Source: Clostridium sp. (lineage in GTDB: Bacteria; Bacillota; Clostridia; Lachnospirales; Lachnospiraceae). Taken from it: DNA of 46,189 bases. Below are positions 5,301 to 40,338 of this stretch, piece by piece. Numbering within the stretch: position 1 is the stretch's first letter; each line of letters begins with the position of its first letter. The position numbers and the translations under genes are program-made. The stretch is taken from contig JAMPFF010000019.1 in NCBI GenBank assembly GCA_023664605.1, positions 1 to 46,189 on the forward strand, read 5' to 3'. The notes under the pieces were generated by a model, which ran no database searches, was not told the DNA's origin, and worked only from the letters and a program-made list of their open reading frames with translations.

Positions 5301-7346
5301 TCACCTAGAAGGTACGATGCCGACTGCGATAGTAACTATGGCAAGCGCCGCCATCGCGCCAAACCATACCTTATCGTAAAACGCCTCGCGGTGGTATTTT
5401 TCCACCGTCTCGGCAATAAATTTCCCCTCTTTGGCGTTATCCGCCATTTCCTCGTCCAGTTTCGCTATGTCCGTTTCCTGTATGTTTAAAGACTCTGTGG
5501 GTATATCCGTCAAGAAAAGCACATAATGGTTCGCCCTGACACATTCCGTATAATTTTCCTCCAATTTTTCCAAATAAGCGCTGCCCTTATCGGCAATCAA
5601 AAAGCTTTCCGTTTTAGGAAGCTGCTCTAAAACCGTCCAATCAGGATTTTGGCCATTATCATACGCTTCTTTTATGACGGCAATCGGCTTTTCTTTTAAC
5701 GCAAACTGAAACAGTCCGACATAGGCGCTCTTTCTGCCGTTGTCAAGATAATAGACGTCTATATCTTTTCCATCCTCTTGGGCGTAATCATTGATATAAT
5801 CATAGATTCGCAGATTGTAATAGGCAAGGTCGCTGCTATAATCAATATATTTCTGGCTAAGCCTTACCGAAAGCAGAACCTCTATGAAAAGAAACACGCC
5901 CATGATAACGGCGTCCTTTTTGAACCTTATTGCCATAACGATACATATGGTCAGGACAAACATTAAGAAAATCCCGAATCCATATGCTTTGCAAAACTCC
6001 GGCGCCGCTTCATAACCATATCTTTCATTGGAAAGATAATTTAACGCCGCCGCATGGCTGCCCACCATTTTACCATTGCCATTATGTAACGCCTGCCAGA
6101 GTACCGCCAGAAAGAGAATCGTGGAAATGCCCGCATTCATAAAAAATATCTGCAGACGCCGCCCGCTTTCCATCATAATAATTAACCCGACGGCAATAAA
6201 AACCGGCAGAAAATATTCATTGTATCTGCCATAAATGATAAAGTCCAGTCTTTTGGAGCCGCCCGTCGCAATCGCCGTAACCGCAAACTGTCCCGCCATG
6301 GAAACGCTCAAAAAAAAGTAAAAGCAGTTTTCTTTGGTAAACGCGCCGCGAAATGTTTGAAACGCACGCTTGATGGAAAACATCGCCGCCGGATAGAATA
6401 ATCCGAAAGAAGCCATTCCCAGATAATAAAGTTTTCCCTCGCAGCTTTGTAAAAACCTGATAATGCCCGTTAGCGTAAACATCGCCTTTAGCTGTTCTAA
6501 GTGTCCCGCATAGCTGTTTTTCGCCATCCGCTCTGCGTCCGCCGCTATATAGGCGGTTTCTTCTATGATATTTTGCAGATACAGACCAATTCCCATACTG
6601 ACAATAAAAATCACAAGCCCCGCCAGAATCTTTTTTCTGCACTCCGGCGTTTTCCATCCATAAAAAAGCAAGGTCACTACCGCGGCAAGCACGACTCCCA
6701 GCGTGCGCATATGCACAAAATACAAATAGGCAAGTGTAACTGACAATACTGTCATTTTTATCATGCCGGGCTTTTCCAAAAAACGAAGCATCTGCCAGCA
6801 GATAAAAAGATACAAAAAACTTAACAGCGCTTCCGACAATGTCGTCTGCGTATAAAAAGTCCAGACCGGATATAAGACCGCCACACCAACGCCGGTCAGC
6901 ATTTTTATTGTTCCTTTGCCGCTATCATCCATAGACGCGCATTCACGGTGCAGACCTTCATACAGTCTCGTTATGATTCCCCATAGTAAACCGATGGAAA
7001 TACACTGAAACAGCATATTGACGGCAACCGCCATCCGGTACGCCTGTACGGAATCCGCGCTAAAGCGCAGTATCGGCGTCAATATCAGACTGTATCCGAA
7101 AGAATAATACATGGAACTTGTCGCCATAACGCCCGACCAGTCATACCCGTTCCACGCCGCCGCGCTCACCCAGTAGCCAAACTCGTCCGGATAGATATGG
7201 AAACCGTAGATTCTATTGATACTCCTCCAGAACATAGCGAAAATAAGAACTGCAAACAACAGAAAATACCAAGAGAAGAAAAAATTTCTTCTCCCGGTTT
7301 TTTCATTTTGATTTTTTTTATGAAAATTAATATTTAATAATTGCAT
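5301..7346 (-). CDS. Polytopic GT-C-type glycosyltransferase-like membrane protein
   Basis: This 681-residue protein has about a dozen hydrophobic segments and a soluble region between about 520 and 650, followed by a last membrane helix. The first extracytoplasmic loop contains YPDEFGYW (Asp54-Glu55), the position and form of the acidic catalytic motif in lipid-phosphate-sugar dependent GT-C enzymes such as protein O-mannosyltransferases and ArnT. The reaction would be transfer of a sugar from a polyprenyl-phosphate carrier to an acceptor outside the membrane; the donor and acceptor are unknown. The ATG lies 20 bases inside the upstream Ser/Glu-repeat gene, with GGGAG just before it, so the two are translationally coupled. 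The neighbour could be the acceptor, which is inference. Confidence 0.8.
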   Translation of the reverse strand: MQLLNINFHKKNQNEKTGRRNFFFSWYFLLFAVLIFAMFWRSINRIYGFHIYPDEFGYWVSAAAWNGYDWSGVMATSSMYYSFGYSLILTPILRFSADSVQAYRMAVAVNMLFQCISIGLLWGIITRLYEGLHRECASMDDSGKGTIKMLTGVGVAVLYPVWTFYTQTTLSEALLSFLYLFICWQMLRFLEKPGMIKMTVLSVTLAYLYFVHMRTLGVVLAAVVTLLFYGWKTPECRKKILAGLVIFIVSMGIGLYLQNIIEETAYIAADAERMAKNSYAGHLEQLKAMFTLTGIIRFLQSCEGKLYYLGMASFGLFYPAAMFSIKRAFQTFRGAFTKENCFYFFLSVSMAGQFAVTAIATGGSKRLDFIIYGRYNEYFLPVFIAVGLIIMMESGRRLQIFFMNAGISTILFLAVLWQALHNGNGKMVGSHAAALNYLSNERYGYEAAPEFCKAYGFGIFLMFVLTICIVMAIRFKKDAVIMGVFLFIEVLLSVRLSQKYIDYSSDLAYYNLRIYDYINDYAQEDGKDIDVYYLDNGRKSAYVGLFQFALKEKPIAVIKEAYDNGQNPDWTVLEQLPKTESFLIADKGSAYLEKLEENYTECVRANHYVLFLTDIPTESLNIQETDIAKLDEEMADNAKEGKFIAETVEKYHREAFYDKVWFGAMAALAIVTIAVGIVPSR

Positions 7347-26709: not shown

Positions 26710-28755
26710 TTATTTTCTGAATTTGATAATAACGTCTTTCAATTTCTGTGATAACGCCATATTTTCATTCGACGTCTTGCAGATATCGTCTGAAATATTG
26801 GAAGTTACCCCGCTCTTTTCTATAATAATGTTGATGGCATTCTCATTTTCCGCCGATATGTCTTTCACATTAGTTGCACTGCTTGAAATTTCCCTTACCG
26901 AATGAGCAAGTATCTGTGTGGATTTATTAACGCTTTCGATTTCTTGTTGTATCTGCAAAATCGCCTCGCTGTAACGCTGTGCATCCTCTGCAAATACTTT
27001 TATTTTTTCCATAACGTCTTTATCAATAAATGTCATAATGTCATCAAAGCATTTTTGAACAATTTCAATACTGCTATTTGCATCATCACAGACACTTTGT
27101 ATGTTGGAGCCGGTTTCCGTTGAAGTTTCAGCAAGCTTCCCGATTTCTCCGGCAACAACGGCAAACCCTCTTCCGGCTTCTCCCGCTCTTGCCGCTTCAA
27201 TCGAAGCATTTAAGGATAACAGATTCGTCTGCGATGCAATTTCCAATATCTGCTGCGTCATTTCATTAATGCTGGACAGGCTTTTTAACGATTCTATTGC
27301 AGTCTCTACAGCGCCTTTGGTCTGGGCAAATGTTTCCTGGCTGCTTACATAAGTAGCCTGTGCCGAATCCCGCATATCCAATGCACTCTGCAGCATCGTT
27401 TCTGTTTTTTCATTGCTCGAAGATATATGGGTAACGATTTCTTCCGTTAAAGAATTTATATTTACAATCTCTCCGTTTACATTGCTGAGTGCATCATGAG
27501 TTCCCTCAAGACTAGCTAAAAGTTCTTCCGTAGTCGCGGTATTATCATTAACACAATCTACCAGACTAGTCGCCGAGTTATTCATAGCCGCACATTTATC
27601 CTCAAGAATGTTGCTGCTCTGTTCCAATATCGAAACGATTTCCCGCAAAGCTTCGGAAAGAAGGTCTGTTGCGGCTGCAATATTCCCGACTTCGTCTTTC
27701 CTGTTCATAATTTTATCCAGTTCCTCATTATGTGAGATATCGTATCCTTTTAACTTTAAAACGGCGTTTTCAACTTTGTGCAGCGGGTTCATCATACGAT
27801 TGATAATCACATACACAAACACTAACAAAAATATCGTCGCAACGACACATATAATAATAAGATTATTCTGCATCGCCTTAACGGAAGCAAAAATTTCATC
27901 CGTATTGTCCGACATAATAAACAGCCAGTCACGGTCGGGTATATACTGATAGCTTGCTAAATACGTTTCTCCATCCACGGCATATTCTATGTATGAATTT
28001 AACTCCGTGCTGCTGCCGGACACGGCATCTATCATTTTATGAATATGTTCTTCTTCGGCGACAGTTGCCACCAGTTCGGGATTAGCGTTAAATATATATT
28101 CACCGGTCTTAACATTCACCATACAGTATTCAGCGCTTTCCATTCCGGTAATCGGCAAACTGTCCAGCGTGGCAAGAATACCATTAGTCAAAACTCCGCC
28201 TCCTACCAGTCCAATCGGATTCTGATTCCCATCAAAAACCGCCGCATACATGGAAACTGTCTGCATCCCGCTTGCCGGTGATATTATAATACCTGTATTA
28301 TACACGCCGTCCGCGGCAAGCATCGCATCCTGCAAAGCCTTTAACGGGTCACCCTCCCTTGTGGTAATACCTACTACACCCGCATTCGTATGTGCGAGAA
28401 CGTGCGTGTTCCATTCACTGACATAGATGCCCTCAAGATTTTCTATATCCGCACTGTACTTTTCCGTATATGCCTGCGCCGCATCCACATACTGCTGATT
28501 CGTCACATCCGATAAAAGGTTCTTAATTTCTCCCGCTCTGCTATACGCTAAGAGCAGCCCCTCAAACTCATTAATATAATTTTCTATAATCTGCGTCCTG
28601 TCGTGCGCTATCGTTTCCAGATTATCAATCGCCGTCTGCCGCATATTATTCGTTAAAAATGAACTGACAAACAGATAAAAAAGTATCATAATAATAATCT
28701 GCATAATAGCAACCATTGCCGTGATTTTGGTACTCATTCTTTTCTTCATAGCCAT
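26710..28755 (-). CDS. Methyl-accepting chemotaxis protein with dCache sensor
   Basis: The 681-residue receptor has a first membrane helix (about 9-33), an extracellular dCache-type sensor (about 35-285) and a second helix (about 294-316). A HAMP domain and a long cytoplasmic methyl-accepting domain follow, containing [31 protein letters not shown], the CheA/CheW-binding hairpin tip. There is no CheR-docking pentapeptide at the C-terminus. The ATG at 28755 has only a short spacing to GAGAG, and an ATG two codons later (28749) has better spacing. It stands alone, far from any flagellar or che gene in this window, so the sensed ligand is unknown. Confidence 0.94.
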
Positions 28756-28850
28756 GCTCTCTTTCTTTTTACAATTTTGTTAAAACAATAGCAAATGTTT
28801 CTTTATTCATCATATTCTATTTTGATAAAAACTGCAATAAATACTTACAT

Positions 28851-28881
28851 AAAAAAGGCTATCCATTTGATTGAATAGCCT
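28851..28881 (-). terminator. Terminator of the 32531-29002 operon
   Basis: AGGCTAT (28856-28862) and its complement ATAGCCT (28875-28881) form a 7-bp stem with a 12-base loop, followed on the minus strand by six T residues. Confidence 0.85.
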
Positions 28882-28887
28882 CTTTAT

Positions 28888-29001
28888 CCCTATTTTGGCA
28901 GTCAGACTGCGCAGTTTTTTAACATCATCCGCATCACTGTCCAGAACAATCATAATATCTATGTCAGATTCTTCCGTATTATCCCCGCGGGCATAGGAAG
29001 C
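28888..29001 (-). pseudogene. Fragment of a minimal nucleotidyltransferase
   Basis: Directly after the stop codon of the preceding gene, and in the same frame, lie 38 codons reading ASYARGDNTEESDIDIMIVL and then DSDADDVKKLRSLTAKIG. This is the active-site core GSYARG-x-SDIDI of an MNT-type nucleotidyltransferase (the toxin or antitoxin partner of HEPN proteins), but with no start, no upstream part and no downstream part. It continues into the terminator. It is a recombination remnant, not a gene. Confidence 0.8.
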
Positions 29002-29463
29002 TTAGTCAAGAAAAAGCACTACCTCTGTTTCCTCCCCGCTCAAAATCTTTGCCAGTTCCGCTTCATCCATATCCGATACTTTCCCGATTCTTGTATATGC
29101 CCATGAATTAGAACCATAAAAAATAACTATCTGATTGCCATTATACAGACAAATATCTCCGGCATGGGTAGTTGTCTGATGGTCGTTTCTCGGAAGCGTC
29201 GTTCCCAGTGAACACACCTTTTCAAATCCGCCATAATTGGACGCCGACATAGACAGTTCCCCGTCTTTCAAAAGTTCCATTAAGGCTTCCACAGACTCGT
29301 TATTCTCCAAAACCGCTGTTAATGTGGTTTCGCCCACTTTTATATACATTTCATTCGTTTCCACTACGTTATCCTCCGCTTCTTTTCCCTTTGTCTCATT
29401 CCCGCAAGCCGCAGCGCCAAGCGACAAAAGCATTGTGAAAATAATGGCTGTATACCTTTTCAT
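29002..29463 (-). CDS. Cyclophilin-like-fold lipoprotein
   Basis: The 153-residue protein starts with a lipoprotein signal (LLSLGAAACGN; lipobox GAAAC). It then shows the cyclophilin-like fold of PF18050: MYIKVGETTLTAVLENNESVEALMELL at the start, a central HAGDICLYNGNQIVIFYGSNSWAYTRIGKV and a final strand. Family members are often found beside flavoproteins and aldo/keto reductases, but a catalytic role has not been shown. The ATG at 29463 has GGAGG 8 bases upstream and overlaps the stop of the DUF3737 gene (ATGA), so the two are coupled. A nucleotidyltransferase fragment follows immediately after the stop. Confidence 0.9.
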   Translation of the reverse strand: MKRYTAIIFTMLLSLGAAACGNETKGKEAEDNVVETNEMYIKVGETTLTAVLENNESVEALMELLKDGELSMSASNYGGFEKVCSLGTTLPRNDHQTTTHAGDICLYNGNQIVIFYGSNSWAYTRIGKVSDMDEAELAKILSGEETEVVLFLD

Positions 29464-30314
29464 CCCGCGTTCCTCCACTGTCTGCCGACAATAATTTCCC
29501 CTGCTGCCTTTTCATCGTCCATGATGATTTCCTCCACCCTGGGCACGCAGATTCTTCCCGACAAAGGATTTTTAATGCTGATAACAGGCGTTGTCACGAC
29601 CGCTTCTACCTGTGATTTTTCAAAGGCAAGGTCCGCATCAATCATTTCACAGTCAATCAGCTTCAGATTTTTACAATAACAAAGCGGCTGCGTTCCGATA
29701 ATCTTACAGTTAATCAGCGTCAGCCCGTCGGAATACCAGGCAAGATACTCGCCTTTTACCACGCTTCTTTTTACCGTTACATTTTCGGAGTGCCAGAAAG
29801 CGTCTTTCGTGTCGAAGATGCAGTTTTCAAATACGGCGTTACGGATATACTGGAAAGAATATTTGCCCTTAAACTGCACATCCTCAAAATGCAGGTTTTC
29901 GGAACGCATCATAAAATATTCGCTCTGTGCCGTAGTGTTTTGCATCTCTATATTATTGACCGACCAGCCAAATTCCGGCGAAATGATATCGCAGTTTTCT
30001 ATCACAACGTTATTGCATTCCCTAAGAGCCTTAATGCCGTGCATCTTCGTATCCGTAATTTTAATATGGTCAGAATACCACAACGCCGCCCTGCATAATT
30101 CGGTCATCTTAGAATCCCGGATGGTTAAGCCGTGGTCGTGCCAAAACGGATAGCGCAGATTGAAAAAACAATGTCTTGCTTCTATATCTCGACTCTCTTT
30201 AAACGCGCTTTCCCCGTCAGCCTCACCGTCAAAAGAACAGTTTTGCGCAATCACTCCATTACTTCCATAAAGCGCCCTTTCCATATCAAAAGTCTGATTC
30301 TCTATCACTTTCAT
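29460..30314 (-). CDS. DUF3737 family beta-helix-like protein
   Basis: The 284-residue protein is built of short repeated strands rich in Asn, Cys and Asp (for example MTELCRAALWYSDHIKITDT and NAVFENCIFDTKDAFWHSEN), typical of a right-handed parallel beta-helix and of DUF3737 (PF12541). The ATG at 30314 with GGAGG 5 bases upstream is the true start; the open frame continues back to 30461 through a non-coding hairpin element. It lies in the LysR-controlled operon behind the aldo/keto reductase. No enzymatic function is known for the family. Confidence 0.92.
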   Translation of the reverse strand: MKVIENQTFDMERALYGSNGVIAQNCSFDGEADGESAFKESRDIEARHCFFNLRYPFWHDHGLTIRDSKMTELCRAALWYSDHIKITDTKMHGIKALRECNNVVIENCDIISPEFGWSVNNIEMQNTTAQSEYFMMRSENLHFEDVQFKGKYSFQYIRNAVFENCIFDTKDAFWHSENVTVKRSVVKGEYLAWYSDGLTLINCKIIGTQPLCYCKNLKLIDCEMIDADLAFEKSQVEAVVTTPVISIKNPLSGRICVPRVEEIIMDDEKAAGEIIVGRQWRNAG

Positions 30315-30339
30315 TTTAACCTCCATTTCGGAGCGTTTT

Positions 30340-30455
30340 CGCGACGGGGCGACGCAAATCTCCAATTTGCGTCTGCCATCAAGGCATATTTGTGACGCTC
30401 CGGCACAAATTGCCGTGTGAAAAATCAGCACATCAGTGTGATTTTTCACACTAAC
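30340..30455. repeat. Intergenic paired-hairpin element between operon genes
   Basis: Three hairpins lie in the 146-base gap before the DUF3737 gene. GACGCAAAT/ATTTGCGTC is at about 30351-30373. A TTTGTG/CACAAA stem-loop is at about 30390-30410. A 13-bp GTGTGAAAAATCA/TGATTTTTCACAC is at about 30414-30450. Their order and loops resemble the elements at 12076 and 45178. No gene is contained here. Confidence 0.7.
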
Positions 30456-30460
30456 CTCCA

Positions 30461-30712
30461 TTATTCCATGTTATTTTTGTTCCGCTCCATCTGATAGACA
30501 AGATAGTCCAGACAGTCTATCTTTTTTTCTTCCTCATGCACTTTATTTAACAGGCATCTTCTGTGTTCTTCCATCAACTGCATCTGCCCGCTTACATCAT
30601 CCTGCTCCATACATTTCATAAAACATTGAATTGTTTCCTGATTGCATCCGGCATCTTTCAGATTTTGAATCACATCTTCCTTAGAGTGATAACCTATCGC
30701 CTGTGCCAACAT
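30461..30712 (-). CDS. Small helical protein of unknown function
   Basis: This 83-residue protein is all-helical, with a HTH-like start (AIGYHSKEDVIQNLKDAGCNQETIQCFMKCMEQ) and a coiled-coil-like end (LMEEHRRCLLNKVHEEEKKIDCLDYLVYQMERNKN). Proteins of this shape often accompany reductase and MerR/LysR loci in Clostridia, but I cannot name the family. GGATAG and GGCGG stand just before the ATG. It lies 30 bases after the cyclophilin-like lipoprotein gene and 146 bases before DUF3737. Four cysteines could be redox-active; this is inference. Confidence 0.75.
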   Translation of the reverse strand: MLAQAIGYHSKEDVIQNLKDAGCNQETIQCFMKCMEQDDVSGQMQLMEEHRRCLLNKVHEEEKKIDCLDYLVYQMERNKNNME

Positions 30713-30741
30713 TATCTATCCGCCATCCTTTCCCCTGCTTC

Positions 30742-31386
30742 CTACTCCCCGGGGCTGATACTGATAATCTTATTTCCCCAGCCCTCTAACACCGGATTAT
30801 TTTCAACCGCATCCACAAATTCTTCACTATTGTCAAAATATCCGACCGGCGTATACTCGGCGCTAACCTCTGCATCCTGATAAAATAAGATGATACGGTT
30901 CGGCTCGGAGTAATAAACCTCTCCCGCCTTTTCTGCCGTAACCTCTTCCGGCGCCGACGGGATTTCATAGCGGCTCGGTATATCGTAATACTGCATGACT
31001 TCCCAATTATCGAAGTCATCATAATGGTAGATTGGCAGATTCCAATCGCTGCTGCCCACATGCTTTGCGATTGCTGCCGCCGTATCGTTATCATAAAGAT
31101 GTAAAATAAACGCTTCTCCCTCATACCCGAAACGGGCGGTCAATTCTTTCGTCTGCGAAGAGTCAGTTTCCTGAACGGCACTATCACTTGTAGAATCTCC
31201 TGCCGAAGTATTTTCCTCCAATGCAGCAGACTCATTACTGTTTTCTGCCGAATCATTCTGTATAGAAACGGCAGAACCGCCAACACTGTTATCGGTAACG
31301 CTCTTCTCTGCAGAACTGCCACAGTCTGTAAATACTATCATGGATGCCGCAAGCAGACCTGATACTGCAATTAATCTTTTTTTCAT
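30742..31386 (-). CDS. Cyclophilin-like-fold secreted protein with Ser/Glu linker
   Basis: The 214-residue protein has a hydrophobic signal peptide ending in VFTDCGSS. A lipid anchor is likely, but the lipobox carries Asp at -1 instead of Gly or Ala, which is unusual and may block lipidation. A low-complexity Ser/Glu/Ala linker (about 25-75) leads to a cyclophilin-like domain (PF18050) with ELTARFGYEGEAFILHLYDNDTAAAIAKHV and GEVYYSEPNRIILFYQDAE and a conserved YTPVGYFDN. GGAGAG lies 9 bases before the ATG. It follows the aldo/keto reductase by 29 bases. A paralogue is at 29002-29463 in the same operon. Confidence 0.88.
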   Translation of the reverse strand: MKKRLIAVSGLLAASMIVFTDCGSSAEKSVTDNSVGGSAVSIQNDSAENSNESAALEENTSAGDSTSDSAVQETDSSQTKELTARFGYEGEAFILHLYDNDTAAAIAKHVGSSDWNLPIYHYDDFDNWEVMQYYDIPSRYEIPSAPEEVTAEKAGEVYYSEPNRIILFYQDAEVSAEYTPVGYFDNSEEFVDAVENNPVLEGWGNKIISISPGE

Positions 31387-31415
31387 AATATATCGCTCTC
31401 CTTAGATACTGAAAT

Positions 31416-32531
31416 TCAGTCAAAATGCTTTGAAACCGTCTGTAAATGCTTGATAATAGGCAGATGCTGCGGACATACCCTTTCACATTGCCCACACTGC
31501 ACACAGTCCGCCGCTTTGCCGAAATTCTGTGTCAAAATGTCGTACTGCGTCAGATTAGACGTCCAGCCCTTTCCCTCTGTCTCTCTGGCATCTTCATTAT
31601 AAAGGGAAAAATACTGTGGAATCGCGATATGCTTAGGGCATCCCTCCGTACAGTAGGAACAGCCGGTACAGGGAATCGCTATCCGGAAACGGATAATGTC
31701 CGCCGCCTGCTCCACCAACCTGTATTCCTCTTTAGAAAACGGCTGAAAATCCGCCATATATCCGGTATTATCCATTATCTGCTCCACATTGCTCATGCCG
31801 GATAATACTACCATGACATTATCAAGGGAAGCGGCAAAACGGATTGCCCATGATGAAACGGATGCTTTAGGCGCATACCCTTTTAAAAGTTTTTCCGCCT
31901 CTGCAGGAATATCCGCGAGCGTTCCGCCCTTGACAGGCTCCATTACAATGACCTGCTTCCCGTGTTTAACGGCGGTTTCATAACAAGCCTTTGCCTGAAT
32001 CCATGGACTCTCCCAGTCCAGATAATTGATTTGAAGCTGTACAAACTCCATTTCAGGATGCTCCGTAAGTATCTTATCAAGCAGCTTTGCGCTGTCATGA
32101 AAGGAAAAACCAATATGTTTTATCAGACCTTGCGCTTTCTTCTGCTGTAACCATGTAAAACAGTCAAACTGCTCAAATTTCGGCAGACTGTCCGCCTCAA
32201 TGCCATGCAGCAGATAATAATCAAAATAATCTACACCAGTCTTTTGCCGCTGGGCATTGAAAATTTTATCCCTATCCTCAAAACTGTTAAAAAATGCCGC
32301 GTGCAGCTTGGATGCCAATGTATAGCTCTCACGGGGATAACAGTCAACCAGCGCCTCTTTAGCCGCGCTTTCACTGTTAAATCCGCAGTACATCCATGCA
32401 GTATCAAAATAAGTAAATCCTTTCTCTATAAAAGCATCCACCATTTTCTTTGTCTGTTCCATATCAATACTTCCCGCATCATTTTTATCAAGCAGCGGAA
32501 GCCTCATAAGTCCAAATCCTAATTTTTTCAT
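31416..32531 (-). CDS. Aldo/keto reductase with C-terminal ferredoxin domain
   Basis: The 371-residue protein has a TIM-barrel AKR domain (about 1-280; FTYFDTAWMY with the catalytic Tyr, LASKLHA with the Lys, YYLLHGI with the His). A C-terminal bis-4Fe-4S segment follows with CTGCSYCTEGCP and CVQCGQCERVCP. Such predicted oxidoreductases of Clostridia reduce carbonyl compounds and may exchange electrons with the ferredoxin domain; the substrate is unknown. The ATG at 32531 has AGAGG 7 bases upstream; the ATG at 32537 sits too close. It is the first gene of an operon behind the LysR-type box at 32591-32636. Confidence 0.95.
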   Translation of the reverse strand: MKKLGFGLMRLPLLDKNDAGSIDMEQTKKMVDAFIEKGFTYFDTAWMYCGFNSESAAKEALVDCYPRESYTLASKLHAAFFNSFEDRDKIFNAQRQKTGVDYFDYYLLHGIEADSLPKFEQFDCFTWLQQKKAQGLIKHIGFSFHDSAKLLDKILTEHPEMEFVQLQINYLDWESPWIQAKACYETAVKHGKQVIVMEPVKGGTLADIPAEAEKLLKGYAPKASVSSWAIRFAASLDNVMVVLSGMSNVEQIMDNTGYMADFQPFSKEEYRLVEQAADIIRFRIAIPCTGCSYCTEGCPKHIAIPQYFSLYNEDARETEGKGWTSNLTQYDILTQNFGKAADCVQCGQCERVCPQHLPIIKHLQTVSKHFD

Positions 32532-32564
32532 CGTCATACCTCTTTTCCTGTTTTCTTGCTTTTT

Positions 32565-32593
32565 ATTATAGGAAACGTTCCTTTATATATCAA
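32565..32593 (-). promoter_or_regulatory. Promoter of the aldo/keto reductase operon
   Basis: On the minus strand TTGATA (32588-32593), a 17-base spacer and TATAAT (32565-32570) form a strong promoter. The -35 overlaps the LysR-type box by 3 bases, exactly as at the second site. Confidence 0.85.
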
Positions 32594-32636
32594 ATACTTA
32601 TTTTAAATCAATATGTATAGTTAAAACCTATACAAA
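32591..32636 (-). promoter_or_regulatory. LysR-type box, operon copy 1
   Basis: This 46-bp element matches the one at 36942-36987 apart from its 9-base inner stretch and two purine changes. On the plus strand it begins CAAATACTTAT, then 9 variable bases, then a part with the palindrome TATAG-N7-CTATA (32616-32632). This is a LysR recognition site with an activation half next to the -35. Confidence 0.85.
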
Positions 32637-32638
32637 TC

Positions 32639-34990
32639 TTAATCCATCAAAGTAATCAGTCTGCATCCTTTTATTCTCCTTCCCGCCAACCACGAAAAAA
32701 TAACAGAAAGCCCAATAACCGCCGCTGCCGGAAGCAGGACATTGGACAGCGTCATATGGGATGAAAAATTACTGATGCCAAACATCCTAAGAAGCGCTGC
32801 CACCAGCGGGTCGGTAAGCAACTCGCTAAATACGATGCCTAATACAGCGCCAATCATGGAAACAATACCAAACCGTAATACAAAAGAAAATCTGAGTCTT
32901 GCCGATGTAAAACCAAGCGTTTTATAGATTCCCAAATCTTTCTGTTCCATAACAAGCAGTTTGCTCTCTGTAAGTGATATAACGACAAACACCACTACCG
33001 CCACAACCCCATACATAAAATACATTAAAAGTTCCATCGCGGAAAGAATCCCATATAACCCCGGCCACGAATTTTCATGCAGATACACATCCCCGCCGTA
33101 TGCCTCATCCAAAGCCTGCATGATTTCCTCCTGCATCCCGGCATCCTCCAGAAAATAATGCACGCACCACATATGCGCGGTTTCCTCTCCTATTTTCTGA
33201 TACCCCTCACGGCTTAAACCCACATTCGCTCCCATATCGTTTGCACACTGATAAATCCCGGAAATTTTATAGGCAAAAGAGCCAAATTCCGCACTGACAA
33301 AAACCGTATCTCCAATATCCACGCCCAAATCGGCGGCAGCAAATTCCGTCAGTACAATCTCATCATCACCGATGCAGCTCTTGCCCCGCAGCATATGGAA
33401 ACGTTCCGGCTGTGTAATGACATTCGCCGTATAATCTATGCCCTCCACCGAAATGCCCGGCATGGCGAGCATATACTTGTCTGTGATATCCGTATAAGTG
33501 CGAATCAGATTCTCCACATCCTCACTTGTGGTTTCTCCCATTGGCTGCGCGGCAATGTGTAAATCAGACGGATTAAAAGCGTCCATCAGCCCCTCGCCGT
33601 TTTTTCCCAGCCAGGAATCCATGCGCCCAATCAAAGAGGCAAAAAATACAAGCAGCATCGCAACAAGACAGGCTCCCATATAACGCATCCTGCCTGCGGC
33701 AAGCTGACGAATAGCCATCCAAAATCCCAGCCCCTCCCGCGCTATCGGCAAAAAAAGCATTCTTTTCTGCTCCCCATTTTCCTTATTCCCGCGGATTGCT
33801 TTCATAGGCGTAATCTTGTCTATCCGTGCCGTTTTCAGATATACAAATCCGGTCAATATCAGGAATACGATTAATAGAACCGACAAACAAATCCCTATCG
33901 GAATCCCGGAGGGAAATAAAAGTCCGCTAGTCGTCAAAGTCATGCGGCTTACCGCCCGCGCCGCCGGCAATGTTAAAATACCTCCCAATATCATGCCGTA
34001 TAAAACAGGTTCAAGGAATAGGCGCATCTGTATACTTTGTAATTTTTTCGTCGTAAAACCGATTGTTTTTAAAATGCCCGTATCTGTCATATCCTGTTCT
34101 ATCGCACTGTTAATGCCATGTTCCATCACTATCAGCGACACCACGGCTAAAATAAGGGCAAACGCCAGAAAAAGTCCGGTAAATACATTTTGCAAAGTCA
34201 GCATGAAACCGGAAATGGCACTGTCCGAATGACTAAATTCCGCATATTGTACAAGTTTGGTACTGTTATTTAAAAGCGCGTTAAACTCCGCCGTACTTAA
34301 CCCGGAATCTTTCTTAAAAATATGCAGCATATAACCGTCACGGGCAAGCCCGTCAATCCCCGCCTGCATGGTCATCCGGGCAATCTCCTCATGGTCCTGT
34401 CCGCAAATGAGAAAACTTTTCATGCCAATCATGGAACTGCCCATAAAAGGGTCCTCAAACCATCCTTTGACAACAAAAGTCTTTACCACACTGTTTCTCG
34501 CAATGGGAAAACTGATTTCATCCCCAATCCTAACGCCAAACATGGACTGCATAGACGGCGATAGATAAATTTCCCCTGTGCCAATCCCTGCATTTTCCAC
34601 CTGATAACCCGTCAGATTATCCGTAAAAATCTTATAGGGATATTTTTCCGGCTCATAGGTAATAAGCTGCCCTTCACTGTCCGACTTTTGTCCGTTTATC
34701 TCATACTCTGAAAAAATAAGCTGCTGTATGCCCGTATGCTCCGTTTCCGAAAGCGCGTTTATTTCATCCGCCAGACTTTCGATATCAGAAACGCCGGACA
34801 CCCATGCCGTAATATTTCCAAATCCGAGCCGCTCCATTTCATCATGCACATAGTTTCCGGCATTTTGCCATATCGTTAAGGCGGATAAAAGGGTCAGCGA
34901 CAAAACCAGAAGCAAAATAAAAATCCCGATTAAACTTCCCCTATGCCGTTTTCGCTCCGCCAGCCATAATGTTCTGATTTCCATTTTCAT
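32639..34990 (-). CDS. FtsX-type ABC transporter permease, ten membrane helices
   Basis: The 783-residue protein carries two FtsX/MacB-like permease domains, each with an extracellular loop and three to four helices. The first pair starts at about 18-40 and about 285-400, the second at about 430-455 and 650-780 (LGIYKTLGFTSARLRFSFVLR is the conserved coupling motif). Such permeases are the membrane part of exporters for lipids, peptides or antibiotics. The ATG at 34990 has AAGG 6 bases upstream. Its ATPase is encoded 35 bases before it at 35026-35787. The stop lies 2 bases from LysR-box copy 1. The substrate is unknown. Confidence 0.92.
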   Translation of the reverse strand: MKMEIRTLWLAERKRHRGSLIGIFILLLVLSLTLLSALTIWQNAGNYVHDEMERLGFGNITAWVSGVSDIESLADEINALSETEHTGIQQLIFSEYEINGQKSDSEGQLITYEPEKYPYKIFTDNLTGYQVENAGIGTGEIYLSPSMQSMFGVRIGDEISFPIARNSVVKTFVVKGWFEDPFMGSSMIGMKSFLICGQDHEEIARMTMQAGIDGLARDGYMLHIFKKDSGLSTAEFNALLNNSTKLVQYAEFSHSDSAISGFMLTLQNVFTGLFLAFALILAVVSLIVMEHGINSAIEQDMTDTGILKTIGFTTKKLQSIQMRLFLEPVLYGMILGGILTLPAARAVSRMTLTTSGLLFPSGIPIGICLSVLLIVFLILTGFVYLKTARIDKITPMKAIRGNKENGEQKRMLFLPIAREGLGFWMAIRQLAAGRMRYMGACLVAMLLVFFASLIGRMDSWLGKNGEGLMDAFNPSDLHIAAQPMGETTSEDVENLIRTYTDITDKYMLAMPGISVEGIDYTANVITQPERFHMLRGKSCIGDDEIVLTEFAAADLGVDIGDTVFVSAEFGSFAYKISGIYQCANDMGANVGLSREGYQKIGEETAHMWCVHYFLEDAGMQEEIMQALDEAYGGDVYLHENSWPGLYGILSAMELLMYFMYGVVAVVVFVVISLTESKLLVMEQKDLGIYKTLGFTSARLRFSFVLRFGIVSMIGAVLGIVFSELLTDPLVAALLRMFGISNFSSHMTLSNVLLPAAAVIGLSVIFSWLAGRRIKGCRLITLMD

Positions 34991-35025
34991 TCTTCACCTT
35001 CCACTATTAGAAAATCTTTTTGTCT

Positions 35026-35787
35026 TTACCACGCTAGAGAAGCCAGCCAGTCATTTATCCTCTTTTCCCTGTCTTTTGCTTCCTCCGCGCGGTATACGCC
35101 CATGAGCATCTCATCCAGTATTTTTCCGTCTTCCAAATATAAAATCCTCGTTCCATGGATTGCCGCCTTTATATCATGCGTTACCATTAAAATGCTCTGC
35201 CCGTTATCGGCAAGCCTTGTCAAAAGCGAAAGCACCTCGTCCGTATTCCGTTTATTTAAAGCCCCTGTCGGTTCATCCGCAAATAAAAGCCCCGGCCCGT
35301 TAATAACCGCCCTGGCGATTGCCGCCCGCTGCGCTTCTCCGCCCGAAACCTCGTGGGGAAGTCTGTCCTTCGCCTTTTCTATATCCATCTGCTTTAACAG
35401 TTCCTCCGCTTTTTCGCGCACATCCTTTGTAGTTTTCCCGGAATCTAGATATCCTGCCACCGCCACATTCTCAAACAGGCTTAAATGACTGACCAGATGT
35501 GTCTGTTGAAATACAAATCCAAACTCGCGGGAGCGCAGAAGCGCCATCTGCCGTTCTTTATATCTGCTGATTTCCGCCCCCTTATATAAAACCTTTCCAT
35601 CCGTAATCTCATCCATGCCGCTTAAAGCATACAGCAGAGTAGATTTTCCCGCCCCGGACGAACCCATAATCACGGTAAAATCTCCTGCGTAAATATCCAC
35701 ATCAATATTTTTTAAAACCTGTTCTTTATCTGCTCCCTGAGAAAACTGTTTACACAGTCCTTTTGCGGAAAGCAATATTTCTTTCAT
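35026..35787 (-). CDS. ABC transporter ATP-binding protein (LolD/MacB type)
   Basis: The 253-residue ATPase has Walker A GSSGAGKST (42-50), a Q-loop FQQTHLV, the signature VSGGEAQRAAIARA, Walker B LLFADEPTGALN and the switch His in VTHD. It powers the FtsX-like permease downstream. It follows the hydrolase gene by 54 bases, so the three genes form one operon behind the LysR-controlled promoter. Confidence 0.95.
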   Translation of the reverse strand: MKEILLSAKGLCKQFSQGADKEQVLKNIDVDIYAGDFTVIMGSSGAGKSTLLYALSGMDEITDGKVLYKGAEISRYKERQMALLRSREFGFVFQQTHLVSHLSLFENVAVAGYLDSGKTTKDVREKAEELLKQMDIEKAKDRLPHEVSGGEAQRAAIARAVINGPGLLFADEPTGALNKRNTDEVLSLLTRLADNGQSILMVTHDIKAAIHGTRILYLEDGKILDEMLMGVYRAEEAKDREKRINDWLASLAW

Positions 35788-35841
35788 ACAGCCGCCTCCT
35801 TTTTATCCGCCGCACAATTCTTTATGAACCAACGGCTTTTC

Positions 35842-36882
35842 TTATTCATGAATCGTAAACACATATTCCTGTTCATAATTTTCACGATGATAATAGACCG
35901 CCTGTCCGTCCGTCTGGTTAAATACTATGCTCCATTCCGTGGATTCAAACTCGCCAAAGTTTCCTTTACTCACGCTGCTTAACGCATCCCGCACATCATC
36001 TTCGCTCATTGTTTCGTTTTGTGCCAGCCGCTCCATCAGCATGTCATAGCGGGTATGGGACTGCGCCGTTCCGATTCCGTTCTTTTCTCCCCCGGCAAGA
36101 TAAAAATTGGTTAAAACCGGCGTTTCTATTACCACCATTTCATTGTCTATATATTCAACCGCCACGCTTCTTCCCCCGGCGTCCGCTATGGCAAAATGAA
36201 CCATCATGCCCATGGACGCGTGCATATCGTACTGTCCAAGCAGTTCCAAGGCTTCGTCTACCGTAGCCGCCTTATCAAGCAGTAAACGGATGGCAGTTGT
36301 CGTTGTAATATCCGGCTTATCCGTATCCTGCTCAATCGTTGCCGAATCCTGAATCATATTGACAGACACTACAAGCCCCTTTTCATTCATGCCATCCAAA
36401 GGCGCATATAAGGCGGCAATCGTTTTTATTTCATCCTTTTTAAGCGCCATGCCGACTATGCCGCCCTGACTGATAAAATTCACATTCACGGTGGAAATGG
36501 AAGCATAACCGTTTTCGGGATAGGATAAAACCGCCATGGCTTCACAATGATTCCAGTCAAAGTTACGGCCGAATAATGATTTTCCGTCTGCAGTCTGTAC
36601 CGCAATCGTACTGCATCCATACGGGCTTTCCATAAATGCCAGGTCTATGCCGGAAAGCAGATTATCCGTTAAAAATTCAACCACTTCTTTATCGGAAGAA
36701 GCGCCGCCGCGCAAAAGGAATTCATCAAATCCGTAATCTCCCTCATAGCGGACGGCAGAAAAGTCTTTTTCCAATTTTACAATTTCATTTGTTGAACTAA
36801 TATTCTCTGTTGCTTTATTTCCGCAGCCGATAAATGATATGGCAATGAAAACAGCCGCCGCACAAAAGACAGCCTTTCGCAT
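35842..36882 (-). CDS. Lipoprotein with linear-amide C-N hydrolase (C59/C45-like) domain
   Basis: The 346-residue protein has a lipoprotein-like signal (VFIAISFIGCGNK). A leader of about 60 residues precedes an Ntn-hydrolase domain of the choloylglycine hydrolase/acyltransferase group. The catalytic Cys is in SPYGCSTIAV (Cys90), followed by LFGRNFDWNHC with the supporting Arg and Asp, and NEKGLVVSVNM later. These enzymes cleave linear amide bonds such as in N-acyl amino acids, bile salts or penicillin V; the true substrate is not visible. The ATG at 36882 has GAGGAGG 8 bases upstream; that at 36888 sits too close. The gene diverges from the LysR gene and heads the ABC exporter operon. Being on the cell surface is unusual. 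Confidence 0.88.
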   Translation of the reverse strand: MRKAVFCAAAVFIAISFIGCGNKATENISSTNEIVKLEKDFSAVRYEGDYGFDEFLLRGGASSDKEVVEFLTDNLLSGIDLAFMESPYGCSTIAVQTADGKSLFGRNFDWNHCEAMAVLSYPENGYASISTVNVNFISQGGIVGMALKKDEIKTIAALYAPLDGMNEKGLVVSVNMIQDSATIEQDTDKPDITTTTAIRLLLDKAATVDEALELLGQYDMHASMGMMVHFAIADAGGRSVAVEYIDNEMVVIETPVLTNFYLAGGEKNGIGTAQSHTRYDMLMERLAQNETMSEDDVRDALSSVSKGNFGEFESTEWSIVFNQTDGQAVYYHRENYEQEYVFTIHE

Positions 36883-36915
36883 AAACATTTCCTCCTCATC
36901 TCCATTTTCAGTTTC

Positions 36916-36944
36916 ATTATAGTAATCCGTATCAAAAATAACAA
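36916..36944 (-). promoter_or_regulatory. Promoter of the hydrolase-ABC operon
   Basis: On the minus strand TTGTTA (36939-36944), a 17-base spacer and TATAAT (36916-36921) form the promoter. Its -35 overlaps the LysR-type box by 3 bases. Confidence 0.85.
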
Positions 36945-36987
36945 ATACTTATACTTTATGCATATGTATAGTTGAAACCTATGCAAA
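36942..36987. promoter_or_regulatory. LysR-type box, operon copy 2 (divergent control region)
   Basis: This 46-bp box is nearly identical to that at 32591-32636, with the palindrome TATAG-N7-CTATG at 36967-36983. It lies between the hydrolase operon and the LysR gene. The divergent lysR promoter has its -35 TTGAAA (36972-36977) inside the palindrome, so the regulator should repress itself. Confidence 0.88.
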
Positions 36988-37000
36988 CTCATGTTATACT
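36972..37000 (+). promoter_or_regulatory. Promoter of the LysR gene
   Basis: TTGAAA (36972-36977), a 17-base spacer and TATACT (36995-37000) lead into the regulator gene. The -35 is part of the LysR-type palindrome. Confidence 0.82.
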
Positions 37001-37060
37001 GTACAAACAGATGATTGCGAAACGCCTGAGCAAAACACAAAACGAAAGGAACGGTACCAG

Positions 37061-37957
37061 ATGGAACTGCGTGTACTTCAATATTTTCTAGCCATTGCCA
37101 GGGAACAGAGCATTGTCCGGGCAGCGGACTCCCTGCATCTTTCCCAGCCGACACTCTCCACACAGATAAAGGGCTTGGAAGAAGAATTAGGAAAACAGCT
37201 TTTAATCCGGGGAACAAAGGGTTCACGAAAAGTTACCCTTACGGAAGAAGGGATGATTTTACGCAAAAGGGCGGAGGAAATTCTGAACTTAGTGCAAAAA
37301 ACAGAAAAAGAGATTACGCTGTCCGACCAGGTCGTGGTCGGCGACGTTTATATTGGAACAGGTGAAACGGATGCCGTCCGCCTGATTGCCAAGACTGCCC
37401 ACAGCCTGTATGAAACCTATCCTGGCATTCACTACCATATTGCCAGCGGAAACGCCGGATTTGTGCTGGAGCAGTTAGAGAAAGGCTTAATTGATTTCGG
37501 CATTATATTCGGCCCGGTAGACCAGACAAGATATCACTCTATAGAAATGCCCTATAAAGATATTTGGGGCGTTTTAATGAGGCGCGATTCTCCCCTTGTC
37601 GGAAAGGATTCTATTACTCCTAAGGATTTGCGGGATAAACCGCTGATTATATCGCAGCAGGAACAGGGAAACGGCGAACTGGCTAAATGGCTGGGCTGCG
37701 AATTATCGGAAATGGAAATTACCGCCACTTATAACCTGCTCTTTAACGCTTCTTTAATGGTCGAGGAGGGTTTAGGCTATGCTATCGGCTTTGATAAAAT
37801 CATTAACACTTCCGGTAACAGCAATCTCTGTTTTCGCCCGCTTTCCCCCAAAAGAGAAAGCGGCATGAGTATCATATGGAAAAAATATCAGGTTTTGTCC
37901 AAGGCGTCAGAAAAATTTATGATGAAATTGAAGGATATGCCGGAAATCGCACTGTGA
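37061..37957 (+). CDS. LysR-family transcriptional regulator
   Basis: The 298-residue regulator has an N-terminal winged helix (MELRVLQYFLAIAREQSIVRAADSLHLSQPTLSTQIKGLEEELG) and an effector-binding domain from about residue 90. The LysR fold is typical, with the LEQLEKGLIDFGIIFGP ligand-binding strand. The start ATG has AAAGGAA 9 bases upstream. It is divergent from the hydrolase-ABC operon and shares its control region, and a second copy of the same box stands before the aldo/keto reductase operon, so it probably controls both. The inducer is unknown. Confidence 0.95.
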   Translation: MELRVLQYFLAIAREQSIVRAADSLHLSQPTLSTQIKGLEEELGKQLLIRGTKGSRKVTLTEEGMILRKRAEEILNLVQKTEKEITLSDQVVVGDVYIGTGETDAVRLIAKTAHSLYETYPGIHYHIASGNAGFVLEQLEKGLIDFGIIFGPVDQTRYHSIEMPYKDIWGVLMRRDSPLVGKDSITPKDLRDKPLIISQQEQGNGELAKWLGCELSEMEITATYNLLFNASLMVEEGLGYAIGFDKIINTSGNSNLCFRPLSPKRESGMSIIWKKYQVLSKASEKFMMKLKDMPEIAL

Positions 37958-38013
37958 GGCATTCCTCTTAGGTTTAGGAATATATATTTTCCTCCATTTC
38001 TCCCATTTCATGG

Positions 38014-39498
38014 TTACAGCCCGTAAGAAGTAAGAAGTTTTCGTTTCCTCTCAATCATTTCATCAATTCTCTCGATATACCCCGCAACATCCTTTACCGT
38101 ATCGCACCGCTCTATCCGCCCGTCGCCATACACTCTCTTTGTCACGGTTCCCGCACCAAGCGCGATGATACTTTGTTTTTCCTCCATGATTAAAATATTA
38201 TAAATGCCGTATTTGCCCTCTCTGGCGTAGCCAACGTTCTCAAAATTGCCGGACATATTCTTCTGTCTGTACAGATAATACGGCGACATTCCCATCCGCC
38301 TTGCGCCCTCTTCGGCAGTTTTCATTGTTTCATCTGTGTTATGTAAACCATCTATGCCGTTTTCCAAAATCCACTGTGACAATTTCGACGCCCTCTTCAC
38401 GGCAAGCGAATGTACAGTCAGGCTATCCGGCGATAATGCTTCTATCGCCTCAATGGTCGCCTTTACATCTTCCTCTTTTTCTCCGGGCAGTCCGAGAATA
38501 ATATCCATATTGATATTGTCAAAACCCGCTTCTCTTGCCATATAAAATGCGTCGATAACCTGCTCTACCGTATGCTGCCTGCCGATAAACTTTAACGTCT
38601 CCTGCTTCATCGTCTGTGGATTGACGGAAATTCTCGTCACACCATGCCGGTGCAGTACGTCCAGCTTTTCTTTCGTGATGCTGTCTGCGCGTCCCGCCTC
38701 TACCGTAAATTCCTGCACCGTGGCAAAATCAAAAGATGCCTTAATCCCGGATAAAAGCCTGTCCAGTTCATCCGCCGACAACGACGTAGGCGTACCGCCG
38801 CCGATATACACCGTATCCAGCATTTTATCCTTATAAAGCTTTGCGATAAAATCAATTTCCTTTTCCAGTGCATCCAGATATTTTGAAACCTGTTCTTTCC
38901 ACAGACTGATAGGAAAAGAGGTAAAAGAACAGTACAGACAAGTCGTCGGGCAAAAAGGAATCCCTATGTATAAGCTGTAGCCGTTTTCATAGTGGAGCGG
39001 TCGTAAGATTTCCATTTCCCGTTTCGCTATTTCTATATTCAGCAAAGCTTTTTCCCTGCTGACAAAATGCTCATTTTGCAAAAAAAGCATAATCTCTTCT
39101 TCACTTTTTCCCTGCTCTAACAATGCCATAGGAATCTTCGTCGGGCGGATGCCCGTAAGGTTCCCCCAGGGAAGAGAAACGCCCGTCTCTTCCCGTAAAG
39201 AATTATAAAGAAAACGCTTGAACGCATTTTTATAATCTGCACTTTTATCATCTGCATTCTCATCCTGTGCAGCGTTCCATATGTAATTTCCGGCAGCTTT
39301 TTTTTCATTTCCAAACTGCAAAGCCACACTGCCTTCTATAAAATCAATCTGCAAGGACGCCGGATATTCCAACAGCTTTTTATCTTTTACAACTGAATCG
39401 GGCGTTAATACCCTGACATCCTTTTCCGGGTAAAACGCCTTGACAAGAGAATGAATATCGTATTCATATTGTGCTTTGTTGGATTTAATAATAAACAT
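38014..39498 (-). CDS. hemZ: Coproporphyrinogen dehydrogenase HemZ, radical SAM
   Basis: The 494-residue protein is a HemN-like radical SAM enzyme of heme biosynthesis, of the HemZ type known in Firmicutes. The N-terminal 170 residues are HemZ-specific. The radical SAM core starts at LYIGIPFCPTTCLYCSF, with Cys183, 187 and 190, and continues with VYIGGGTPTSLS, VEAGRADSITKEKL and DNINMDIILGLPGE. The role in Lachnospiraceae, which rarely make heme, is unclear; some HemZ/HemW-like members act in heme handling. It is monocistronic and convergent with the LysR gene. Confidence 0.93.
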   Translation of the reverse strand: MFIIKSNKAQYEYDIHSLVKAFYPEKDVRVLTPDSVVKDKKLLEYPASLQIDFIEGSVALQFGNEKKAAGNYIWNAAQDENADDKSADYKNAFKRFLYNSLREETGVSLPWGNLTGIRPTKIPMALLEQGKSEEEIMLFLQNEHFVSREKALLNIEIAKREMEILRPLHYENGYSLYIGIPFCPTTCLYCSFTSFPISLWKEQVSKYLDALEKEIDFIAKLYKDKMLDTVYIGGGTPTSLSADELDRLLSGIKASFDFATVQEFTVEAGRADSITKEKLDVLHRHGVTRISVNPQTMKQETLKFIGRQHTVEQVIDAFYMAREAGFDNINMDIILGLPGEKEEDVKATIEAIEALSPDSLTVHSLAVKRASKLSQWILENGIDGLHNTDETMKTAEEGARRMGMSPYYLYRQKNMSGNFENVGYAREGKYGIYNILIMEEKQSIIALGAGTVTKRVYGDGRIERCDTVKDVAGYIERIDEMIERKRKLLTSYGL

Positions 39499-39661: not shown

Positions 39662-40069
39662 TTATATATGAGAATTTAGAAAATCTGATGCTGTCATGAC
39701 TTTAAGATTTGTAATATTAGCTTCTAAAAAATCTTTATCTCCGGTCAAGAGAATATCTGCATGTGCTTTCACTGCCGCCCGTAAAATTGGTCTGTCCGAC
39801 GGGTCGCGTACCGCCTGCTCATCATCAATCTCTTTCTCAGGCATATCTACCAATTCCATTACCGTGAGCGCATATAATAGGAAACGCTCTAATAAGTATA
39901 ATTTATCAGGAAATTTCCTATGGAAAATCCTATGTATCTCTTTCACATTCTGCTCGCAGATAATTCCCTTATTAGGATACGCAACCGCTTTTAAAAACGC
40001 CTTGTAAGGAGTTCCCCTGGGATTGTATGCTGCCGATATCAGAATATTGCTGTCTATCAGTATTCTCAT
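39662..40069 (-). CDS. PIN-domain toxin
   Basis: This 135-residue protein is a PIN-fold ribonuclease of the putative type II toxin family. The conserved acids are Asp7 (ILIDSNIL), Glu near NVKEIHR, Asp in RDPSDRPIL and Asp in LTGDKDFLE, which would bind the catalytic metal. The gene overlaps its antitoxin gene by 4 bases (ATGA, 40066-40069), so translation is coupled. Toxic activity is expected from the family, not shown. The module is inserted after enolase. Confidence 0.9.
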   Translation of the reverse strand: MRILIDSNILISAAYNPRGTPYKAFLKAVAYPNKGIICEQNVKEIHRIFHRKFPDKLYLLERFLLYALTVMELVDMPEKEIDDEQAVRDPSDRPILRAAVKAHADILLTGDKDFLEANITNLKVMTASDFLNSHI

Positions 40070-40338
40070 CTTCCTTCTATTTCATTCCTCACTTCCTTCA
40101 CAATTTCGTCGATACTCTCTTCCGATGTCAAACCGCCTTTCTCCCACTCTCCTTCCATATCTTTCTGAAACATTTTCATTGCATATACAGCCGCATTCAT
40201 CATAATCACCTGCTCTCCTTCACATATCAAGGTAACTCTGTCTCCGGTATTAACGCCCAATTTGGCTCTAATTTCTTTCGGCAGAGTAATCTGCCCTTTC
40301 GACATCACCTTTGCACTATCCACAATCAATGGGTTCAT
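40066..40338 (-). CDS. AbrB/SpoVT-like antitoxin
   Basis: The 90-residue protein has an N-terminal SpoVT/AbrB DNA-binding domain (VMSKGQITLPKEIRAKLGVNTGDRVTLI) and a C-terminal acidic helix (EESIDEIVKEVRNEIEG) that should block the PIN toxin. GGGAGG is 10 bases before the ATG. It is expected to bind the palindrome at 40359-40392 that covers its own transcript start and to repress the operon. Confidence 0.92.
   Translation of the reverse strand: MNPLIVDSAKVMSKGQITLPKEIRAKLGVNTGDRVTLICEGEQVIMMNAAVYAMKMFQKDMEGEWEKGGLTSEESIDEIVKEVRNEIEGR

Follow-up and report, generated by a model that had tools for sequence, protein, structure and literature searches.

Can one operator, present in two copies, let a single LysR-type regulator (LTTR) control both itself and two operons? 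The question is raised by a 46,189-nucleotide stretch of Clostridium sp. DNA (hereafter the window), for which an earlier note had proposed one regulon reading a shared box. On comparative sequence evidence, we consider it very probable that the regulator controls its own gene and two same-strand operons in this way.

Gene content of the locus

The gene content given in the earlier note agrees with Pfam, and the features of the locus are collected in Table 1. The p83 protein is without a match in Pfam, NCBIfam or PADLOC. Its family (52 sequences) is invariant at N16, G21, R50, L54, H58, L67, D68 and L70 and nearly so at C22 and C66, and its three-helix model may loosely resemble HTH-less ZntR/MerR, in a comparison with a MerR-type sensor fragment.

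Table 1. Genes, promoters and operator elements of the locus, in window coordinates.
Feature	Position	Strand	Remarks
LysR-type regulator, 298 aa	37061..37957	+	PF00126 and PF03466
C45/choloylglycine-hydrolase-family Ntn hydrolase	35842..36888	-	N-terminal lipobox C22 (by eye); predicted nucleophile C92
ABC exporter ATPase, LolD/MacB-like	35026..35787	-	
FtsX-type ABC permease, 783 aa	32639..34990	-	
Aldo/keto reductase (AKR)	31416..32537	-	C-terminal 4Fe-4S domain
Cyclophilin-like lipoprotein Cyp1	30742..31386	-	PF18050
p83, 83-aa helical protein	30461..30712	-	commonest first divergent gene in relatives
DUF3737, predicted beta-helix	29460..30311	-	start taken at 30311
Cyclophilin-like lipoprotein Cyp2	29002..29478	-	PF18050
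lysR promoter, TTGAAA-17-TATACT	36972..37000	+	-35 within RBS of box 2; columns conserved
C45-ABC operon promoter, TTGTTA-17-TATAAT	36916..36944	-	geometry kept in relatives
AKR operon promoter, TTGATA-17-TATAAT	32565..32593	-	
RBS of box 2, ATAGGTTTCAACTAT	36968..36982	-	T-N11-A type; core contains lysR -35
ABS of box 2, ATAAGTATTTGTTAT	36938..36952	-	overlaps -35 TTGTTA
RBS of box 1, ATAGGTTTTAACTAT	32617..32631	-	ends kept, TCAA core lost
ABS of box 1, ATAAGTATTTGATAT	32587..32601	-	overlaps -35 TTGATA

The hydrolase scores 107 against a cut-off of 85 for the C45_proenzyme subfamily model, and a cysteine is its predicted nucleophile. Among 24 homologues from the cluster, 23 or more retain this residue, C92, and C92, R108, D111, N168 and N261 are each kept with at most one exception in the 24. 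Because these residues are kept and a lipobox is present, the protein is likely to be an active surface amidase, as predicted from its sequence. A bile salt hydrolase identity was rejected, the equivalog score being 48.7 against 350.

Between p83 and DUF3737 lies a 136-bp repeat (30325-30460), bordered by AATGGAGGTTA direct repeats, with 37 matches in its own genome at E <= 0.001 and an RNA fold of -60.2 kcal/mol (z -6.45). It is missing at the corresponding site in two relatives' loci (L140 and L033), and similar copies are found in 12 of the 31 genomes searched, its own counted. Its features suggest a short mobile or REP-like element that has landed on a ribosome-binding site. Elsewhere in the window, a small minus-strand ORF pair (39662-40069 and 40066-40338) resembles, by eye, a PIN-domain toxin with an AbrB-type antitoxin.

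Two copies of one two-part operator

The two 46-bp boxes (box 1, 32591-32636; box 2, 36942-36987) are identical at 38 of 46 bases on the minus strand, and the runner-up 46-mer match to box 2 on either strand of the window reaches 26/46. Their likeness is far above chance, although at 83% the earlier description of the boxes as nearly identical was slightly strong. The sequence positions do bear out the geometry described there: both minus-strand -35 elements overlap their boxes by 3 bases with a spacer of 17, and the -35 of the divergent lysR promoter falls inside box 2.

The operator consensus drawn from relatives consists of a recognition half (RBS) of the form ATA-N9-TAT, 15 further bases, and then an activation half (ABS), ATAAGTATTTG(C/T)TATT, which runs into the -35. 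In an alignment of lysR upstream regions these appear as two 15-base elements whose starts are 30 bases apart, RBS ATAGGTTTCAACTAT and ABS ATAAGTATTTG(C/T)TAT, both of the ATA-N9-TAT (T-N11-A) form. With the transcription start placed 7 bases past the -10, the predicted RBS centre is at about -66 and the ABS centre at about -36. Taken from this inferred start, the box positions agree with the LTTR layout described in the excerpt of PMC8407307, namely a T-N11-A RBS near -65 and an activation site at -35.

Promoter-like matches alone carry no weight here, because the region 28700-38100 holds 20 of them against a mean of 19.8 in shuffles and is thus at chance level; what is taken to carry weight is the fixed geometry across relatives.

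Uniqueness in the genome and the LysR paralogues

When up to 3 mismatches are allowed, the two-part pattern matches boxes 1 and 2 only across the own genome (3,585,022 bases in 78 contigs), and the backwards control gives 0. The exact string ATAGNTNNNANCTATNCATAT is likewise confined to boxes 1 and 2 in this genome. Over 12 genomes, the pattern at 3 mismatches gives 24 matches against 3 in the control. At 1 mismatch, further ABS matches occur in the own genome at C11:82828, which lies within or beside a coding frame, and at C37:23091.

The same genome encodes two further LysRs, both on contig C14 and 40–42% identical to the divergent one, and these too could recognise boxes 1 and 2. The divergent LysR might then be just one of several regulators that bind here. 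In keeping with this, the promoter of a flavodoxin lipoprotein beside the 40%-identical LysR (L141, G000:C14, about 6695-6760) carries an ABS-like CTAAGTATTTGATAT with TATAAT at the same spacing. However, the RBS differs at C14, where another dyad, ATGCTTTTTGAGCAT, stands 31 bases upstream, and across species the ATAGGTTT(C/T)AACTAT form of the RBS tracks orthologues of the divergent LysR. Binding of the boxes by the paralogues is, on balance, unlikely.

Conservation of the operator in relatives

LysR matches at E <= 1e-60 were found in 43 of 98 genomes searched, paralogues counted, and the best 80 loci among the matches listed were taken as the named set. An ABS lies between lysR and the divergent gene (within 260 bases, at most 3 mismatches) in 65 of the 79 usable loci of these best 80, exactly in 25 cases and with one mismatch in another 25; the reversed ABS pattern, used as a control, is found in 0/79. 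Anchoring on an exact RBS instead, which leaves out the 35 of 80 loci that are without one, places an ABS at a fixed +30 with at most 3 mismatches in 43/45 loci. Exact matches to the two-part pattern number 22, spread over 20 of the 295 genomes of the order (none in the backwards control), and a combined scan of 109 loci (1.67 Mb) returned 108 matches, compared with 0 in the reversed sequence. A box beside lysR is absent at up to 3 mismatches in 15 of 101 distinct LysR loci, some of them at contig edges. The layout is common to many relatives.

The activation half changes less than the recognition half

Constraint within the operator was gauged at 86 loci as parsimony changes per site on a tree of the 86 LysRs. 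The ABS underwent 4.7 changes per site, the RBS 9.0, the linker 20.3 and the flanks 24.9–35.4; the ABS rate is favoured by the anchoring of these loci on the ABS, which the RBS-anchored count offsets only in part. Two linker positions are exceptions, A-7 (1 change) and T-6 (3 changes). The -10 at 17 bases is kept, as is the lysR -10 on the opposite side. The lower rate in the ABS than in the RBS is new here, as judged from these reconstructed changes.

Also new is that the RBS core, TCAA, is complementary to the TTGA of the lysR -35. Of 80 distinct boxes that adjoin a divergent lysR, 67 have this core, as opposed to 2 of 27 other boxes, and one of these two has a lysR within 520 bases; counted with duplicates and without the window, the figures are 69/82 and 2/26. 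Because boxes without lysR mostly lack the core, the regulator appears to make its contacts at the ATA and TAT ends. The core in box 2 probably doubles as promoter, which fits autorepression.

Regulators with T34 and a wing insertion in the DNA-binding domain pair with an RBS ending in TAT at 54 of 55 loci, whereas among the 26 with R34 and no insertion the end is of the CAT type in 23 (clean in 21, shifted or altered in 2) and TAT in the other 3. As a case of coevolution this was rejected: once the DNA-binding domain is left out of the tree, 1 independent pair has support (2 if every branch is counted), which amounts to no test. The difference in the RBS core may also stem from how strong a -35 the overlapping lysR promoter has, TTGAAA versus TTGACA.

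It is possible, though we would not favour it, that the ABS ATAAGTATTTG(C/T)TATT acts as an activation module that hardly varies and has the -35 built in, common to orthologues and perhaps to paralogues within one genome, while each regulator has in the RBS an address of its own, which changes along with it. If so, regulons would grow by setting a new address ahead of a ready-made module, which would also account for re-promoters inside long operons. Three further ABS-containing promoters (L042 3540, L162 949 and L165 6471) have an odd first half ending in TTTCCTTG and share TCTTGTTAAGATA downstream.

The second box and gene order in relatives

A box follows the FtsX permease gene, the position of box 1 in the window, in 11 of the 17 relatives' loci that include the end of FtsX (L038, L046, L140, L150, L185, L198, L200, L208, L211, L215 and L220; that of L198 is weak, score 4). 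It is absent in 6 of the 17 (L036, L040, L049, L050, L167 and L174). The near relative G034 has a box ahead of AKR-Cyp1-p83-DUF3737-Cyp2, at 90–97% identity, and its post-FtsX box shows 1 mismatch to the two-part pattern, with a changed core. In G034 locus L031 (G034:C50, 11664-11726) there is a 21-aa FtsX start, the full gene ending another contig (L140); this is probably an assembly break.

These loci bear on whether box 1 is a recent, accidental and functionless duplicate of box 2, as its 38/46 identity to that box might imply. We regard this as highly improbable: boxes in this position are found in relatives, each with an RBS that has diverged in its own way, the G034 box has a changed core, and the promoter and ABS of box 1 are intact.

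Within 700 bases of lysR, the first divergent gene was recognised in 54 of the best 80 loci (p83 in 36, C45 in 10, DUF3737 in 4, Cyp1 in 2 and Cyp2 in 2) and not in the remaining 26. Long same-strand runs of C45..ABC..FtsX..Cyp1..p83..DUF3737 occur in L150, L200, L208, L215 and L220, and in all of these except L220 a PaaK-like AMP-binding protein follows C45. L036 has C45-ABC-FtsX-Cyp1-p83-Cyp2 behind a single box, with no internal box. Genes for MATE, LysE, CMD, alpha/beta hydrolase and flavodoxin-lipoprotein products are found near some relatives' loci. Support is weakest for the aldo/keto reductase as a member of the regulon; it stands behind a box only in the window and G034, and other matches to it are few and mostly elsewhere.

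Because the cargo genes are shuffled behind these boxes, the case for one regulon is a good one. The boxes, their geometry, their conservation and their association with cargo can all be seen in the sequence, and the conservation in relatives strongly supports the earlier claim of one LysR regulon with a shared box and an autoregulated lysR.

A model for the regulon and its possible role

In the model that we favour, a LysR tetramer would be anchored on the RBS (ATA-N9-TAT, about -66) and reach the ABS (about -36, into the -35). With inducer bound, it would switch on C45-ABC-FtsX through box 2 and AKR-Cyp1-p83-DUF3737-Cyp2 through box 1. Bound LysR should also repress lysR itself, whose -35 falls within the RBS of box 2. 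Box 1 would be a re-promoter inside what was formerly an uninterrupted series of genes. What we infer here is binding, action as a tetramer, activation, autorepression and the inducer.

The earlier note also suggested that the regulon detoxifies or exports an acylated compound. While the regulatory part of that reading is upheld by conservation in relatives, this part is compatible with the gene content, which includes an intact-looking lipoprotein amide hydrolase and an ABC exporter, with a PaaK-like AMP-binding enzyme adjoining in relatives. Our best guess, weakly held and quite possibly wrong, is an inducible envelope response that would cleave, reduce and expel a foreign or self-made amide-type small molecule, because an exporter adjoins C45 and redox proteins lie behind box 1.

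Control of the textbook LysR type is thus joined to a regulon that limited searching did not find described in the open-access PMC literature. In open-access PMC papers, DUF3737 had no match, ATAAGTATTTG gave none that by title concerned bacterial regulation, and choloylglycine, LysR and Lachnospiraceae together gave none. Other searches there gave no title on this regulon, and a paper that one of them returned, PMC7464077, deals with chlorine stress in the part consulted. For a LysR group that is widespread in gut clostridia and unstudied, the locus provides an operator and a set of targets that can be put to the test, and it links DUF3737, p83, cyclophilin-like lipoproteins and lipoprotein C45 hydrolases to one switch. 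It also supplies natural examples of an LTTR operator whose recognition and activation halves evolve at unequal rates, and this uneven conservation is the part that deserves specialist attention.

Comparison with known systems

The hydrolase resembles the choloylglycine hydrolase/penicillin V acylase/C45 family in that PF02275 and C45_proenzyme are above cut-off and its Cys-first Ntn core aligns to 3pva. It differs in being a lipoprotein with a long N-terminal stretch ahead of C92, and in falling far under the cut-offs of the bile salt hydrolase and penicillin V amidase equivalogs.

The regulator belongs to the LysR type on its domains (HTH_1 76.7 and LysR_substrate 76.2 bits, against cut-offs of 26.6 and 28) and, as predicted, on its operator layout. 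Its best NCBIfam match is CidR (NF047520), to which it is similar as an LTTR over the whole length at 130.6 bits, but it misses the cut-off of 415 and the cluster as annotated has no cid-like genes.

A redox regulon of the OxyR kind is suggested by the 15-mer of box 2, which fits the ATAGntnnnanCTAT consensus quoted in the excerpt of PMC10580950. The 4Fe-4S reductase in the regulon and the flavodoxin lipoproteins in relatives point the same way. This reading is nonetheless quite improbable, as the OxyR equivalog scores are 87.5 against a cut-off of 329 (NF008361) and 66.7 against 500 (NF050018), and the LysR alignment has no conserved cysteine pair at what we take to be the OxyR positions. The OxyR rule of two ATAGntnnnanCTAT units 7 bases apart also fails: one RBS fits, but the second element comes 15 bases on and reads ATAAGTATTTGTTAT.

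As an LTTR system, the locus matches the divergent promoters described in the excerpts of PMC8407307 and PMC11739112, with a T-N11-A RBS near -65, an ABS meeting the -35 and a divergent autoregulated gene. Unlike the general LTTR layout, however, the ABS here appears to be kept more strictly than the RBS, and the internal promoter has a second full operator of its own.
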